Part shown: positions 4,292 through 12,283 of the stretch, piece after piece
Numbering within the stretch: the first letter of the stretch is position 1
Layout of the letters: the number at the start of each line of letters is the position of its first letter
NCBI GenBank assembly: GCA_030610855.1
Contig: JAUWQY010000003.1
Location: 1-64,000 of the forward strand
Length of the DNA: 64,000 nucleotides
Reading direction: 5' to 3'
DNA from: Dehalococcoidia bacterium
GTDB taxonomy: Bacteria > Chloroflexota > Dehalococcoidia > GIF9 > AB-539-J10
Program-made: the position numbers and the translations under genes
Notes under the pieces: model-generated
Database searches by the model: none
Told to the model about the DNA's origin: nothing
What the model saw: the letters and a program-made list of their open reading frames with translations, nothing else

Positions 4292-4976
4292 CCTTTTACC
4301 TCCTTATCAATTTCTCAAAAACTAACACGCTTTTCTCTAGGCGTCCAAGCTCTATAAGCTGGTGACAAAACCATATAACAATCCCGCCGCAGTGCAGCAT
4401 GCGATTAAGATGACATGAGCAACGCAACACCTATACCTTTTAGCTTCAAGTTGTCCACAGGTGTGGTGTAGAAACACAAGTTAACGCTATACTGCTACGC
4501 CAGAGATAACAAAACAGGTCATTGTGCAGCAATCCAGGTGGTTGTGGGCTTTCATCCTCATGAGGCGCACTCCGGACCTCTGCTTGATCCGGTGATCCTT
4601 CATACGCGCAGCGCCAAATGCTACACTATCGCTAATCTATATGTAGCACAGTTGCAGTGACGGGCAGATACGCACGGTTACGGCAACCACCTTGAGCATA
4701 GCTCCTGGTGTTTCCTACTAGGACCCGGATCAATGCAGCCGGTGCCGCGCATGAGAGCGCCACTGATAACTCAGACTCAAGAGGGCCTGGATGCCCAATC
4801 CAGTTCCTCATCTCGAAGCTGCATCTGCGTCACCGGGATCTCTAGGTCAGTGCGATGCTTCACCCTTGATACGGTTCGCGCGGAGCTCAGTAGTGGTTTG
4901 CGAGCGCCCGCCAGCCCCAGATCGCTCGGGACCGTTCCCTGAGTTCAGGACTCGCTCGATCATGGGTTGTCTGTGA

Positions 4977-7900
4977 TCACGGCTCGTCCAGGAGGAACAG
5001 CCATCTGTCCAATGGGTCGGGGTAAGCATAGAACCTCTTCAGGTGGATAACCTTCTCGGTGGGGAAGGCCCTCTGCAGATAGAAGGGTCCGCTGCAGACC
5101 CAGAAGTGACCCTTCTCCGGGGCGGTGTACCAAGCATGAAGGTTATCGTAGCGCTCGGTCGCCTCGTTGGCATCGACGTAGTCACCCATCGTCGGCGGGT
5201 AGGGGATGTTGTCTGGGTAAATCCCTGCCCTGAAGGTATCCAGCTGGTCCTTCAGGATGGGCAGGCTCGGACCGGCGATGAAGTCCGTCCACTCGACTTC
5301 GTTAGCCGTGGCCTTGGTCTTGCCGAAGGCAAGCAGACCATCCGCCTCGGCTCCGATACCGAGGGCAAGAACGTGCCAGAAGCCGTTGCCGCCATCGTAA
5401 TCGGGCCACATGGTCGTGACCGTAAGCTCAGCATCCACATACCATTGATCGGAGTAGTACTCGACGACCAGCCCGTAGCTTGGATTATCGGTGATGAACT
5501 TCACACCCTTGAACTGGCTCATCAAATCGTCGAAGTAGTACACCGCGTCTGCATCGTAGATGGAGCTCTCCGGCTTGGCGCGATCGAACAGAAGGATCGT
5601 GTAGAGGATGAAATCGCCCATGGACAGCGTGCTGCCATCATGCAGCGGGGTCTCGAAGATGTCCAGCGGGTAGTAGCTCACCGACTTCGTCAGCGCGACC
5701 CTATCGCTGGGGTCAGGGAACCGCTCCGCCACGGTGATGAACTCCTGTGTCGTGGCATCCCAGTCGGCCCAGGCGTCGTCGGGAACGGTGATCTCAGTCG
5801 CGAAGTCAAGTGAGCACCACTCGGTGTTGATCACGCAGACTGGCAGGCCGGTCTGACACGTAACCTCGGCACTGTCGATGCGTCCCGCCCAGCGCAGCCC
5901 AGTGCGCGTGTCGGGGTGGTGACCCATGTCGCCGGTGCCGCGGATGGGGAGCGTGTCGTAGAACCGGCTGCTGCCCCCAATCGGGTTCCAGGGGCGGGCT
6001 AGTATCCCGGGCATGGCTACCCTTAGCGTGCCACCGTACGGGGAGCCGCCTTCGTCCGTGAAGTGTACCGTAAGTGCCCACATCCAGGACCGGTACACAC
6101 CGCCCGCGAGGTCAGCTGCCACGTCCACGTTGGCCTGCATCGGGGTGAACCACTCATTCGTTACAATGAAGACCCTCACAGAGTCCTCCATCGTGCCCCA
6201 CATGCATGTCTCGAACAGGTCAGCCCGCTCTTCCATGGTGGTGAAGTCGTTGCTCCACAGCTTCTCAGCCTCGGTGAAGTAGGGCTGGTCGTGGCCGTAG
6301 GCCTCCCATAGAGGGCTCAGGGGCAACACGTCGGTGTACATGAAGCCGAGCATCGGTCCTTCGTTACGGGAGATGACGGTGCTCACCCAGCCGCCGGTGT
6401 AGATGTGCCAGAGGCCGAGGTCAGGGTCGCTGTTCAACCAGATATCTGACAGCTCGGGAAGGGTGCCGTACTGTTCCGCCACGGACAGGCCCCAGTCTTC
6501 CAGCAGATCGGCGAGGTAGTCACCCATCTCGGTCCTCTCATCCTCCGTCCTGATGAGGAAGATGACCTCGACCTGCTCATCACCACCACCGTAGTCGTAC
6601 CACCAGTAATCGCCGTGATACGTGCAGCCGAGCGAGAGCATCCCCGCCTCGAACTGCAGCCAGGCGGCATCGAGCTTCTCACTCGTGTGCGCGTAATACG
6701 CCTCAACATCAGCCATGAGGGTTGGGTACCTCTCAGCCGCCTCGAAGGCGTGGTTCAAACACGTGTATCTTGGCACTCCGAGGCCACCCATCATGCTCCC
6801 GACAATGTAGTCGCGGTCGATCAGCCAGTTGATGGTCTCGCGAATCTCGGGCAGGCAGAACGGATTCAGCTTCCCGGTTGCGGTAAACAGCGGGCCTACA
6901 GGGTTGAACGTGTACTCGTACCAGTTCCCGAGGTTCTTCTTAGCCACCAGATCGGGATCAGCTAGCACCTCGGCGTAGAGTGTAGCATCCGTCACGCTGT
7001 ACGCGAAGATGTCCAGCTCATCGGCCTGCAGCAGCGCGATGGCCTCTGTGGCATCCGTCTCTTGTGTTATCACGATCTCCTCTGGGACGGGGAGACACTG
7101 TTGAGTCTGCAATTTGTAGTGCGAACGCACTTCACTGATATCAAGACAAGAAAGATATATAAAAGGTCTAAGATACAAATCGTCATAACGCATTATTACT
7201 CGATTATCAGTGTCGCACGTAGGGTTACATGCTGTATGATGCGTACATCCTGTATTCTTCTTGTCTTCAAGATCATCCAGCCCAAGAGTATGACCAATCT
7301 CGTGTAACGCCACTCTCAGGAAAGGGATTCCACTATAATCAAAATCACAGTAATCATCTGCTATCCACTTTGTCGACGCGCCTCCGGGGTGGGTATTGAA
7401 ATATATGGTGAATTGTCCTGCAGGACTATAGCCCCATAAGTACCATGTAGTTCTAGCATAAACATCACAAGGTAGTAAATCATACCACTGGCAAAAATTC
7501 GTTTCACGAAAGACTATATCAGCCTCGTCTTCATCTCCAGTTATGTCAAAAGTGATAGTATCATCCAATGCAGTTTGCCACATCAGGAAAGCATCAGCTA
7601 TTTCCTGATGAAATAAGGATTCATCGTCCTCATCACCCGGAACCGAAGCTATGTAATAACTGACAGTAACACCTGGATTCCAACGTTGTCCCCAGAAATT
7701 CCATCTAGAAAAGTGATTGGTAGAGACATGAATAACATTAGCGTTTGTGTCAACTACATAATCATTAGCTAGATGTGCTTCTTCAGAGCCGCTCAATGCG
7801 AAATAGACAGAAAGAAATCTCTCGGAGAAATCTGTTCCATCAATAAACCCATCGTCGTCCAAATCGCTATACGGCAAAGTGATTGTGCAGTTCTTGCTTA

Positions 7901-8204
7901 GAAGAATGTTATCAGGTTCTATTAGGATTGCAGGTGTAAACGATGCAAATTCGCACTTATCTGAAACAGACAAATCAAATGTGGTTTCGCTTACACTAAT
8001 AGTTATTTCATCCGTAAGAGCATCTGGCGGTATTTCGATACGCGTTCCGTATATGGAACTCTCTGGATCAGTAACCTCGAGCACTCCACCATCAGGTCCA
8101 ATCACAGCTTCAGCCTCTGGTTCCTGCGCTGTGTCACAAGATACGGGGATTGCCAGAGCCAGCAATGAAAACACTACGGCTGCTATGACTATGCCTCTTC
8201 GCAT
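4977..8204 (-). CDS. Secreted lipoprotein fusion: ZU5-like region + matrixin/M10-like zinc metalloprotease + family-5-type ABC substrate-binding protein
   Basis: Signal/lipobox MRRGIVIAAVVFSLLALAIPVSC; zinc motif HEIGHTLGLDDLED; SBP-like RTEDERTEMGDYLADLLEDWGL and GGTLRVAMPGILARPWNP. Confidence 0.75.
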   Translation of the reverse strand: MRRGIVIAAVVFSLLALAIPVSCDTAQEPEAEAVIGPDGGVLEVTDPESSIYGTRIEIPPDALTDEITISVSETTFDLSVSDKCEFASFTPAILIEPDNILLSKNCTITLPYSDLDDDGFIDGTDFSERFLSVYFALSGSEEAHLANDYVVDTNANVIHVSTNHFSRWNFWGQRWNPGVTVSYYIASVPGDEDDESLFHQEIADAFLMWQTALDDTITFDITGDEDEADIVFRETNFCQWYDLLPCDVYARTTWYLWGYSPAGQFTIYFNTHPGGASTKWIADDYCDFDYSGIPFLRVALHEIGHTLGLDDLEDKKNTGCTHHTACNPTCDTDNRVIMRYDDLYLRPFIYLSCLDISEVRSHYKLQTQQCLPVPEEIVITQETDATEAIALLQADELDIFAYSVTDATLYAEVLADPDLVAKKNLGNWYEYTFNPVGPLFTATGKLNPFCLPEIRETINWLIDRDYIVGSMMGGLGVPRYTCLNHAFEAAERYPTLMADVEAYYAHTSEKLDAAWLQFEAGMLSLGCTYHGDYWWYDYGGGDEQVEVIFLIRTEDERTEMGDYLADLLEDWGLSVAEQYGTLPELSDIWLNSDPDLGLWHIYTGGWVSTVISRNEGPMLGFMYTDVLPLSPLWEAYGHDQPYFTEAEKLWSNDFTTMEERADLFETCMWGTMEDSVRVFIVTNEWFTPMQANVDVAADLAGGVYRSWMWALTVHFTDEGGSPYGGTLRVAMPGILARPWNPIGGSSRFYDTLPIRGTGDMGHHPDTRTGLRWAGRIDSAEVTCQTGLPVCVINTEWCSLDFATEITVPDDAWADWDATTQEFITVAERFPDPSDRVALTKSVSYYPLDIFETPLHDGSTLSMGDFILYTILLFDRAKPESSIYDADAVYYFDDLMSQFKGVKFITDNPSYGLVVEYYSDQWYVDAELTVTTMWPDYDGGNGFWHVLALGIGAEADGLLAFGKTKATANEVEWTDFIAGPSLPILKDQLDTFRAGIYPDNIPYPPTMGDYVDANEATERYDNLHAWYTAPEKGHFWVCSGPFYLQRAFPTEKVIHLKRFYAYPDPLDRWLFLLDEP

Positions 8205-9253: not shown

Positions 9254-10993
9254 CTATACTACTACTAGTTTCTTCACGTCATTAAAGCCCGGTGCAGCAG
9301 TCATACGTCCTCTCAAGTCGTTCTTGGCCGTAGGGTCTACTAACGCTTTTTGCAGTGCGCTGCGTAGAACTATAATTACATCCGGACATTTCGTCTTGAG
9401 TAAATCCTCTATTCCTTTGAAATGCTTGGTTTCAATTTCTCCTTCATATGATATCACCGCACGACATCTCACCTTGGGTCCTGTTTTCTTGGCGAGTGCT
9501 GATACAAATTGCCCGTACATCATTAGTTCGGCAACGATAGACTTGTTTGGCACTAATTTGGAGCCCCATTCCTTAACGCTTTTGCATTCAACCAAAGACA
9601 GGAAGCCATTCGTAACTAATAAGTCCGGATTGGTTCTGGCCATTCTATTCCAGTGGGGGTCGTCCGCGAAATACTCGACCAGTTGACCTTGGTACTTAGC
9701 AACATAGAAATGGTCCTTTTGCAGTTGTTGTAGAAAGACATAAGTGGCTGCTTCATAATCAGATTGGAACTGATATTGTATTGAGTATGTGGGAAGGATG
9801 GCTTTGATATTTAATCTGCTTGAGAGAGCTTGGGAGCTCTCGTTGGCTTCCTCCTTAAATTTGGCGAGCCACGTATTTATCGATGCCCACTCAACATCGT
9901 GAATAATCCTAGAGGGATTTGACTTCATTCCAATGTGTGAGAGGAGATCATCAAGCTGATGCTGTACGAGTTCGTACCGTTCCGGCGGTACGTCGTAAGA
10001 CATGGAGAAATCAAACCAAGAACCATGGTCACAGATCTGCTTGATGGTTAGCCCTGTTACTTCATGAATTAAAGAGCCAATAGTGCCAGTTTCGAATAGG
10101 CCGTTTCTCGCTTCAACCGTGGCCAATTTTTTTATTAATTGCGCTTTGTGGCGTAGCTGGAGATGGTTTATTAATATGACCGCCGCTGCGGCCAGGTCGC
10201 CCCAACCACCTAGGTCAGCCCACCAAATTGGAACGCTGGCACGATAGTAGTCTAGAACAGTTTTGCCACGTGGTGTAACTACAAAAGTCCGGGTTTCCTT
10301 ATTTTCTTTGATAAGGCCTATTTGCTTGCACCAATCCATGAAAGGCATAGTATCCCTGGCGACATTCCTCTTGTGGCTAGGTGTCAGTTTTTCGAAGTAT
10401 GTCTTTGCCCATTTCGCCGAAGCGACTTTCTTCACCGTTTGAGGGAACTTTGTTTGAGGTTCAGTCAAGTCGGCCGATAAATCGGAGAGAATGGCAGCAA
10501 TTTGAAACAGGTTCAATTCTTTGGATTGGTCAAGACTGGCTAGAATAGCCAGACATAACCGAGTTCTAAGATTCGCGTACGTTCCGCCTGCTTCCTGCAG
10601 GTAAGAAGTGTTAGCAATCTTGAAACGGCAGATTCTGTCAACAAGAATCGCTTCTTCTAGTATATCGTTAGGGCACTCCTGGCTGATTTTGTATTTTGAA
10701 AGTGCTCTGCCCCATTCGGTTGGAAAATGAGCAAACTTGGAGCCGGTTCTTTTCCGATAGACTAGACCTAAGTAACGAGCGGTTTCGAGATGGTCTCTTG
10801 CACGACGCCCAATTTGGTCTCTCACCTTAGCGATACTTGCTTTGCTCAGATGTGTTTCGATCAAGTGGTCTGCTATTGCCATGTCATCGACTGCAATGCC
10901 TTTATCAACCAGGTATGCTACACGATTAACCACAGTCCTGATTCTGTGCAGAGTGTGTACCCTTGTGACGCTGGGGGCAGATTTCTCTTCCAT
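9254..10993 (-). CDS. Putative type II restriction endonuclease (PD-(D/E)xK)
   Basis: NPDLLVTNGFLSLVECKSV fits PD...ExK; directly downstream of a DNA methyltransferase. Confidence 0.75.
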   Translation of the reverse strand: MEEKSAPSVTRVHTLHRIRTVVNRVAYLVDKGIAVDDMAIADHLIETHLSKASIAKVRDQIGRRARDHLETARYLGLVYRKRTGSKFAHFPTEWGRALSKYKISQECPNDILEEAILVDRICRFKIANTSYLQEAGGTYANLRTRLCLAILASLDQSKELNLFQIAAILSDLSADLTEPQTKFPQTVKKVASAKWAKTYFEKLTPSHKRNVARDTMPFMDWCKQIGLIKENKETRTFVVTPRGKTVLDYYRASVPIWWADLGGWGDLAAAAVILINHLQLRHKAQLIKKLATVEARNGLFETGTIGSLIHEVTGLTIKQICDHGSWFDFSMSYDVPPERYELVQHQLDDLLSHIGMKSNPSRIIHDVEWASINTWLAKFKEEANESSQALSSRLNIKAILPTYSIQYQFQSDYEAATYVFLQQLQKDHFYVAKYQGQLVEYFADDPHWNRMARTNPDLLVTNGFLSLVECKSVKEWGSKLVPNKSIVAELMMYGQFVSALAKKTGPKVRCRAVISYEGEIETKHFKGIEDLLKTKCPDVIIVLRSALQKALVDPTAKNDLRGRMTAAPGFNDVKKLVVV

Positions 10994-12283
10994 TTATTTG
11001 CTCACAATGACAATACTTTCTTCACTCATCGTATCTCCGGTAGGACCTGTCCATGCGATCATTTTCTTGGGAATATTTCTATAGTGCGTAGTCTCGTGTC
11101 TCATACCTGCCGCCTCAGCTAATTCTGTTGTGACTTTGCCCATGTCTATTAGTATCCTACTCATAGAACGATGACCAATCACTATACAAGCCTTGCTGTT
11201 AGGTCGCAATACTCTTTGCATCTCCTTCAAAGTGACGAAATAATCAGCCATGAAAGGGAGGGCCTCTGCCAGCCTTCTTTCAGAGACTTTATTCGCAGCT
11301 TCCCAAAAGGTGTTTGACGGGATTTTAGTGCTAGTAATGTTCTTTACGCTCATACCACCCAGAGACTTGATTTCGAGGGCTTTCACTTCATCTTGTGTGA
11401 AGCCTAGCCACAGCAGGAAGAGTTTACTCCAACGAATGTAAGGGATCGTGTTTCGCTCCTCCCCGTATGGAGGAGATGTGACAATCAGGTCGATTTCGCT
11501 GTCGCCAATTGGAAGCGACCGGGCGTCACCGTTCTTTACTTCAACCTTAGCTCGCTTCTTTTTTGTGTACGCTGTCAGTCTTTTTTCAATATCACCTATG
11601 TTACCCCAAAATATTGTGAAGGCATCAGGATTGTGGTCTTGTAGTTTGTATTCAGTCATTACTCTAATATACCTACTGGATTTCCAGTCAACATTCGATG
11701 ATTTCATGACGGCGTGCGCGAAAGCTATCTTGAAAATACCCTTCAACTCTTCATCGGTAACAGTCTCGACTGCTTTTCGAAGGTGAGATAGTTGAGCGAT
11801 GACGCCCGGTTTGAACCAGTGATTTAAGTTAGTGAACGCCGGAACGTACTCTTCCAATGCATTCCCATCGAAGGTCTGAAGAGAGCTTCGTAAATCTGCT
11901 TTGATGGCGTCAAAGGACGTTACATCAATAACGGCAGTCTTCGCCTTAGCCAGAAGTACCGCAAATGGATTTATATCTACGCCTATGCTGGGAATTCCTT
12001 GAAGAGATGACTCGACTAGGACGGTTCCGCTGCCGCAAAAGACATCACATATCTTGCCGGATTCGCTATCGGTCCAGTACATTGCTATGAGCCTGTGGAC
12101 TATTTGCGGTATTAATCTAGCTGGATATGGGAACAGCCCATGCGTCAAGTACTGAGTATCGGCGGTCGCAAATTCCCAGCCTACTTCGGAGTCTGGTCTT
12201 AGCAGAGCAAAACCCGGGAGCATTTGGTTGGTGCGCTCGTATTGCAAATTCTTACCTCCACCAACGACTTGGGGCGCAGACAA
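10994..12283 (-). CDS. DNA methyltransferase (amino-MTase, RM-associated)
   Basis: Motif I DVFCGSGTVLVES, GVDINPFAV, catalytic VTSPPYGEERN; stop abuts the start of the endonuclease gene. Confidence 0.9.
   Translation of the reverse strand: MSAPQVVGGGKNLQYERTNQMLPGFALLRPDSEVGWEFATADTQYLTHGLFPYPARLIPQIVHRLIAMYWTDSESGKICDVFCGSGTVLVESSLQGIPSIGVDINPFAVLLAKAKTAVIDVTSFDAIKADLRSSLQTFDGNALEEYVPAFTNLNHWFKPGVIAQLSHLRKAVETVTDEELKGIFKIAFAHAVMKSSNVDWKSSRYIRVMTEYKLQDHNPDAFTIFWGNIGDIEKRLTAYTKKKRAKVEVKNGDARSLPIGDSEIDLIVTSPPYGEERNTIPYIRWSKLFLLWLGFTQDEVKALEIKSLGGMSVKNITSTKIPSNTFWEAANKVSERRLAEALPFMADYFVTLKEMQRVLRPNSKACIVIGHRSMSRILIDMGKVTTELAEAAGMRHETTHYRNIPKKMIAWTGPTGDTMSEESIVIVSK

Follow-up and report, generated by a model that had tools for sequence, protein, structure and literature searches.

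The minus strand of the window (the whole 64,000-nucleotide stretch of Dehalococcoidia DNA that was analyzed) carries a reading frame which a preliminary description had read as an in-frame fusion of a matrixin-type metalloprotease to an ABC-transporter substrate-binding protein (SBP). The question raised by this locus is whether such a protein is genuine and, if so, what kind of SBP it contains and how the two parts could have come together.

Architecture of the predicted protein

The frame was found to run from 8204 to 4977 through 1075 codons with no internal stop, and it opens with a lipoprotein signal, in agreement with the single-frame lipoprotein originally proposed (Table 1). Judged from this signal, the fusion protein is predicted to be lipid-anchored at the cell surface. 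A ZU5-like N-terminal region had also been proposed. Weak similarity to ankyrin ZU5 structures does exist (E 0.1–0.7), with the ZU5 profile (PF00791) giving E = 0.082 and 13.6 bits over residues 33–113, which lies below the cut-off of 21 and is suggestive at most.

Table 1. Features of the fusion locus in window coordinates.
Feature	Position	Strand	Basis
Fusion ORF, 1075 aa, lipoprotein	4977..8204	minus (ATG 8204 to stop 4977)	ORF reading
Putative signal peptide, lipobox-like ..AIPVSC (Cys23), first 23 residues	8136..8204	minus	sequence; same style as ..VIPGC / ..VVSGC of relatives
ZU5-like region, residues 33–113, sub-threshold	7866..8108	minus	PF00791 profile, ankyrin ZU5 matches
Matrixin-like metzincin domain, residues 175–~365, C-terminal limit inferred	7110..7682	minus	PF00413, karilysin
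Zinc site HEIGHTLGLDD, residues 301–311 (HExxH at 301)	7272..7304	minus	alignment to karilysin HEIGHLLGIEH
Met-turn candidate IMRY, residues 337–340	7185..7196	minus	sequence only
Domain and composition junction, residues 366–374 (QTQQCLPVP)	7083..7109	minus	GC change point; start of homologous SBP
Permuted SBP block 1, residues 374–720, equal to canonical SBP_5 C-terminal half	6045..7085	minus	PF00496 144–347; 7fi3 329–586
Permuted SBP block 2, residues 721–1075 from ~GGTLRVAMP, equal to canonical SBP_5 N-terminal half	4980..6044	minus	7fi3 64–309
Non-coding tail of high-GC segment	4516..4976	none	composition
Low-GC element, 117 bp, abutting high-GC segment	4399..4515	none	86% identical stretch elsewhere in the genome (contig C68)

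The protease part matches Peptidase_M10 (PF00413; Pfam) with 26.2–29.6 bits over residues 175–315, above the cut-off of 24, and its nearest solved structure is karilysin (E 0.003). With the matrixins (M10) and other metzincins it shares the HExxHxxG motif and a candidate Met-turn. The alignment to karilysin points to Asp311 as the likely third zinc ligand, at the position of the usual third His in HExxHxxGxxH. The earlier assignment as a matrixin-type zinc protease thus holds for profile, zinc motif and Met-turn and has to be amended at the third ligand, for which reason the domain is called here a matrixin-like metzincin. Asp as third zinc ligand is a variation seen in snapalysin (M7). The domain further differs from matrixins and other metzincins in a Cys-containing loop ahead of the Met-turn and in the attached SBP.

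No close relative of the protease half was found in the genomes searched, and a scan of viral contigs with the protease returned no match. The AlphaFold model of the ZU5-protease part, made from the single sequence, has a pLDDT of 31 and was discarded. When 60 relatives were searched with PF00413, mostly short matches at 112–136 in proteins of ~175 aa were obtained; these were set aside as unrelated and are probably YbeY-like. The sole true matrixin from this search is a congeneric protein (L148; HEFGHFLCLDDL), which likewise has Asp at the third-ligand position and continues into fibronectin-like repeats with no SBP.

A circularly permuted family of SBPs

The assignment of the C-terminal part to the family-5 binding proteins was confirmed (SBP_bac_5, PF00496, from residue 370; 39.5 bits against a Pfam cut-off of 32.4). 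The order of its parts, which the preliminary description had missed, is unusual. The first part of the SBP corresponds to profile positions 144–347 of PF00496, and the start typical of a canonical family-5 protein (GGTLRVAMPG..PWNP) lies in mid-SBP, near residue 723. A profile built from 35 permuted relatives was compared with Thermococcus kodakaraensis OppA (7FI3, 732 aa). Profile positions 7–244 aligned to 329–586 of the 7fi3 chain (i-E 1.7e-30) and positions 413–667 to 64–309 (i-E 2e-15), so that the two blocks stand in reversed order relative to 7fi3. The SBP half is therefore a circularly permuted variant, in which the canonical C-terminal half precedes the N-terminal half.

AlphaFold predicted one compact, well-ordered fold for the 703 aa permuted SBP of the same alignment (pLDDT 91.2, pTM 0.86). 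7fi3 headed the Foldseek list for this model (E 2.5e-18), followed by other cluster C SBPs, with TM values of about 0.3–0.4 of query length, which is to be expected since a sequential aligner can match one half only. The model agrees with a two-lobed cluster C fold. For the permutation the Foldseek result, which comes without aligned ranges, is supportive and not decisive. 7FI3 is also the best match by sequence (E 1e-46), and the nearest solved peptide-binding homologue has ~18% identity. Unlike 7FI3, the fusion has its SBP halves swapped and its SBP domain lacks a preceding signal peptide of its own. The SBP part is otherwise complete (residues 374–1075) and reaches the family C-terminus where the homologues also stop. 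In the family alignment 88 columns are conserved to ≥95% in the other rows; the fusion SBP retains 91% of these, and the two other Dehalococcoidia rows retain 91–92%. With conserved columns retained to this extent and the C-terminus complete, decay of the SBP is not apparent.

The permuted order is not confined to the window. In a genome-wide pattern scan, it was found in 80 of 80 loci (81 ORFs) among the best 80 of 390 related stretches; as permuted sequences served as its seed and contiguous matches were favored, this is no measure of the share of canonical proteins. The record titles of these loci name Chloroflexota, Bipolaricaulota, Bacillota, Atribacterota, Thermotogota, Spirochaetota and Planctomycetota, with the proviso that many are metagenome-assembled genomes (MAGs) and that single phylum names may be wrong. 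A permuted SBP is carried by the cultured Bellilinea caldifistulae (L057), and further, more distant permuted members were found in Dehalococcoidia, one of them in a single-contig genome (L145). That both a cultured strain and a single-contig genome have this order shows that it is independent of the source assembly. A literature search returned no account of natural circular permutation in SBPs, the papers obtained being on engineered sensors or unrelated subjects; a natural arrangement of ABC-importer SBPs that is undescribed in the literature searched is thus common here and spread across several phyla.

A second rotation was also detected. If the blocks are labeled a-b-c as they occur in the window protein, this order was seen in 114 ORF copies and b-c-a in 16, copies being repeated since the loci overlap. 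The b-c-a copies represent five genes of the same Dehalococcoidia family (C19 of the window's own genome, G013 C145, G018 C48, G028 C23 and G028 C31). Four of the five start with a hydrophobic or lipoprotein-type leader, and the start of G028 C31 is missing from the sequence. Of the b-c-a loci (L014:1402-3675 on C19, L009, L016, L010 and L020), several head Dpp-type permease genes. When the b-c-a label is mapped on a quick maximum-likelihood tree, no fewer than four changes are required, which suggests that rotation happened repeatedly, the number itself being unsure given the long branches and the use of one quick method. Among the rotated relatives an SBP fragment of the canonical-like order c-a-b was noted (L141:2-1339); it is cut by the contig start, and a tandem or other order is possible.

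At five loci (L032, L036, L038, L039 and L040) a permuted SBP was found at the head of an operon that also encodes two permeases and two ATPases, the operon genes being assigned by Walker A, LSGGQ and EAA motifs and hydrophobic segments, without profiles. As they often head complete Dpp-type operons in this way, permuted SBPs are probably functional. Contig C19 of the same genome as the window (L030) holds a b-c-a copy with a complete permease/ATPase set, of which the second permease is intact. Three of the four long ORFs listed from this operon (L030:11858-19219) have a GC3 of 0.79–0.84, and neighboring genes have 0.59–0.73. That a single bacterial family has both rotations, within one type of operon, provides a natural experiment on the contiguity that the binding protein needs for docking and closing.

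Dpp/Opp-type importer operons of Dehalococcoidia, such as those on G014 contig 85 and G037 contig 20, encode the same permuted SBP family as the fusion. There the SBP carries a signal peptide or membrane anchor of its own and lies beside two permeases and two ATPases. The window SBP is by contrast an orphan that follows a protease. In the eight other ORFs examined from 2.1 to 17.2 kb, Pfam detected neither a permease nor an ATPase domain, as the preliminary description had stated for the adjoining genes. Orphan permuted SBPs occur elsewhere too (L033, L035 and L037).

Origin and possible function of the fusion

The domain junction coincides with a break in codon composition which had not been reported earlier. 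G+C content is ~42–43% upstream of the junction and 60% downstream, the best change point lying at 7092–7110 (residues 366–371), and GC3 rises from 34.5% before to 80.2% after it. The level of ~60% persists until about 4.53–4.65 kb and then drops back. Free-standing homologues start with a leader, either a signal peptide or a membrane anchor, and a short linker and then align from the junction point onward (VDEIVISQE against PEEIVITQE in the fusion), which argues that the fusion replaced the leader and linker of the SBP. The junction lies at most ~10 residues from the start of the aligned SBP domain in these homologues, and this position, together with the frame being open across the joint, makes it more than a chance event. 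On a quick maximum-likelihood tree the SBP part falls among paralogues from the genus and family, with a support of 91–95. Foreign origin of the SBP segment was considered and rejected, given this grouping and a GC3 the same as that of the C19 operon.

An assembly chimera in this metagenome-derived genome would account for the jump from about 42% to 60% G+C at one position, in a genome of 76 contigs and with the fusion found in no second genome among those searched. This explanation is nevertheless very improbable, given that the joint preserves the frame and falls between two domains. Exact words common to the junction and to the remaining window sequence, or to other stretches of the same genome that were read, do not exceed 12 bases, and for the 117-bp element at the other end the longest exact word in common with C68 has 20 bases. 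As both flanks of the high-GC segment are low in G+C, two false joins would be needed. A misassembly at the junction is thus unlikely on the sequence as read. Doubt had been placed in advance on a fusion with no homologue combined with a frame-joining error; the lack of a homologue did materialize, and a frame-joining error is not supported.

Searches with the protease half in 52 family, 393 class and 400 phylum genomes (overlapping sets) gave partial, weak matches and no second fusion. With the SBP half, 60 relatives and 393 class genomes were searched, and the same protease was on no other protein among the matches listed; nor was a protease match obtained in the best 80 of 390 permuted-SBP loci. 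A unique fusion at an orphan locus, with a sharp composition break at the joint and a low-GC repeat next to the distal end of the high-GC segment, could also be a young chimeric gene of little or no joint function, formed when a copy of the SBP was placed downstream of a protease gene and the frame stayed open by luck. The in-frame joint at a domain boundary, the 1075 intact codons and the conserved SBP positions speak against this, and we consider it distinctly unlikely.

The main rival holds that the SBP serves as an exosite or targeting domain which holds peptide or glycan for the tethered protease, with no role in transport. It is in keeping with the lack of an adjoining permease or ATPase and with the joining of other permuted SBPs to non-transport modules (a kinase in L063, a beta-helix in L091). 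However, the fusion SBP retains the family positions found in operon-encoded members and a complete permease set is present on C19, and an exosite role appears somewhat unlikely.

The evidence leaves evenly balanced our preferred reading, namely a real, recent and lineage-specific gene fusion that works through a lipid-anchored protease and SBP as proposed. A low-GC lipoprotein gene encoding the ZU5-like region and the matrixin-like zinc protease would have been fused, with the frame kept, to a paralogue of the circularly permuted SBP_5 protein that is native to the lineage, taking the place of that protein's signal peptide and linker. From its position outside the cell, held by the lipid anchor, the protease would trim nearby extracellular polypeptides and the SBP domain would bind the cleavage products. 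If both halves are active, the protein would be a cut-and-capture device in one molecule, as the preliminary description had suggested, which is plausible. Against it weigh the Asp in place of the third His, the low identity to the nearest solved peptide-binding homologue and the absence of an adjoining permease. We infer that the SBP may also pass the products to a Dpp-type permease from another locus, for which the complete set on C19 is a candidate.

Other fusions and neighboring elements

Of the two findings the permutation has the wider reach, and the protease fusion is a single case that builds on it. In an Anaerolineae MAG (L063:4603-8355), a single frame of 1251 aa links a Ser/Thr kinase (PF00069, E 2e-52) through a membrane segment to a permuted SBP, and is a candidate one-protein nutrient receptor kinase. 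At L091:1552-10014 a permuted SBP is combined with DUF11 repeats and with right-handed beta-helix repeats in a frame of at least 2821 aa, and in two G011 paralogues an InlB B-repeat domain precedes the permuted SBP. A tolerance of permuted SBPs for added N-terminal modules may explain the different modules on these members. Tentatively, and a little short of an even balance, we propose a large bacterial permuted branch of the family-5 SBPs that was re-rotated several times in Dehalococcoidia within working importers, and whose N-terminus was reused as a fusion point for a protease, a transmembrane kinase and surface repeat arrays.

Two further observations were made in the window. The element at 4399–4515 is a dispersed repeat, its end lying close to the start of the high-GC segment. 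At 9254–12283, within low-GC sequence, a DNA methyltransferase is encoded beside a 579-aa protein that was placed in no family, and the pair is probably a restriction-modification system.
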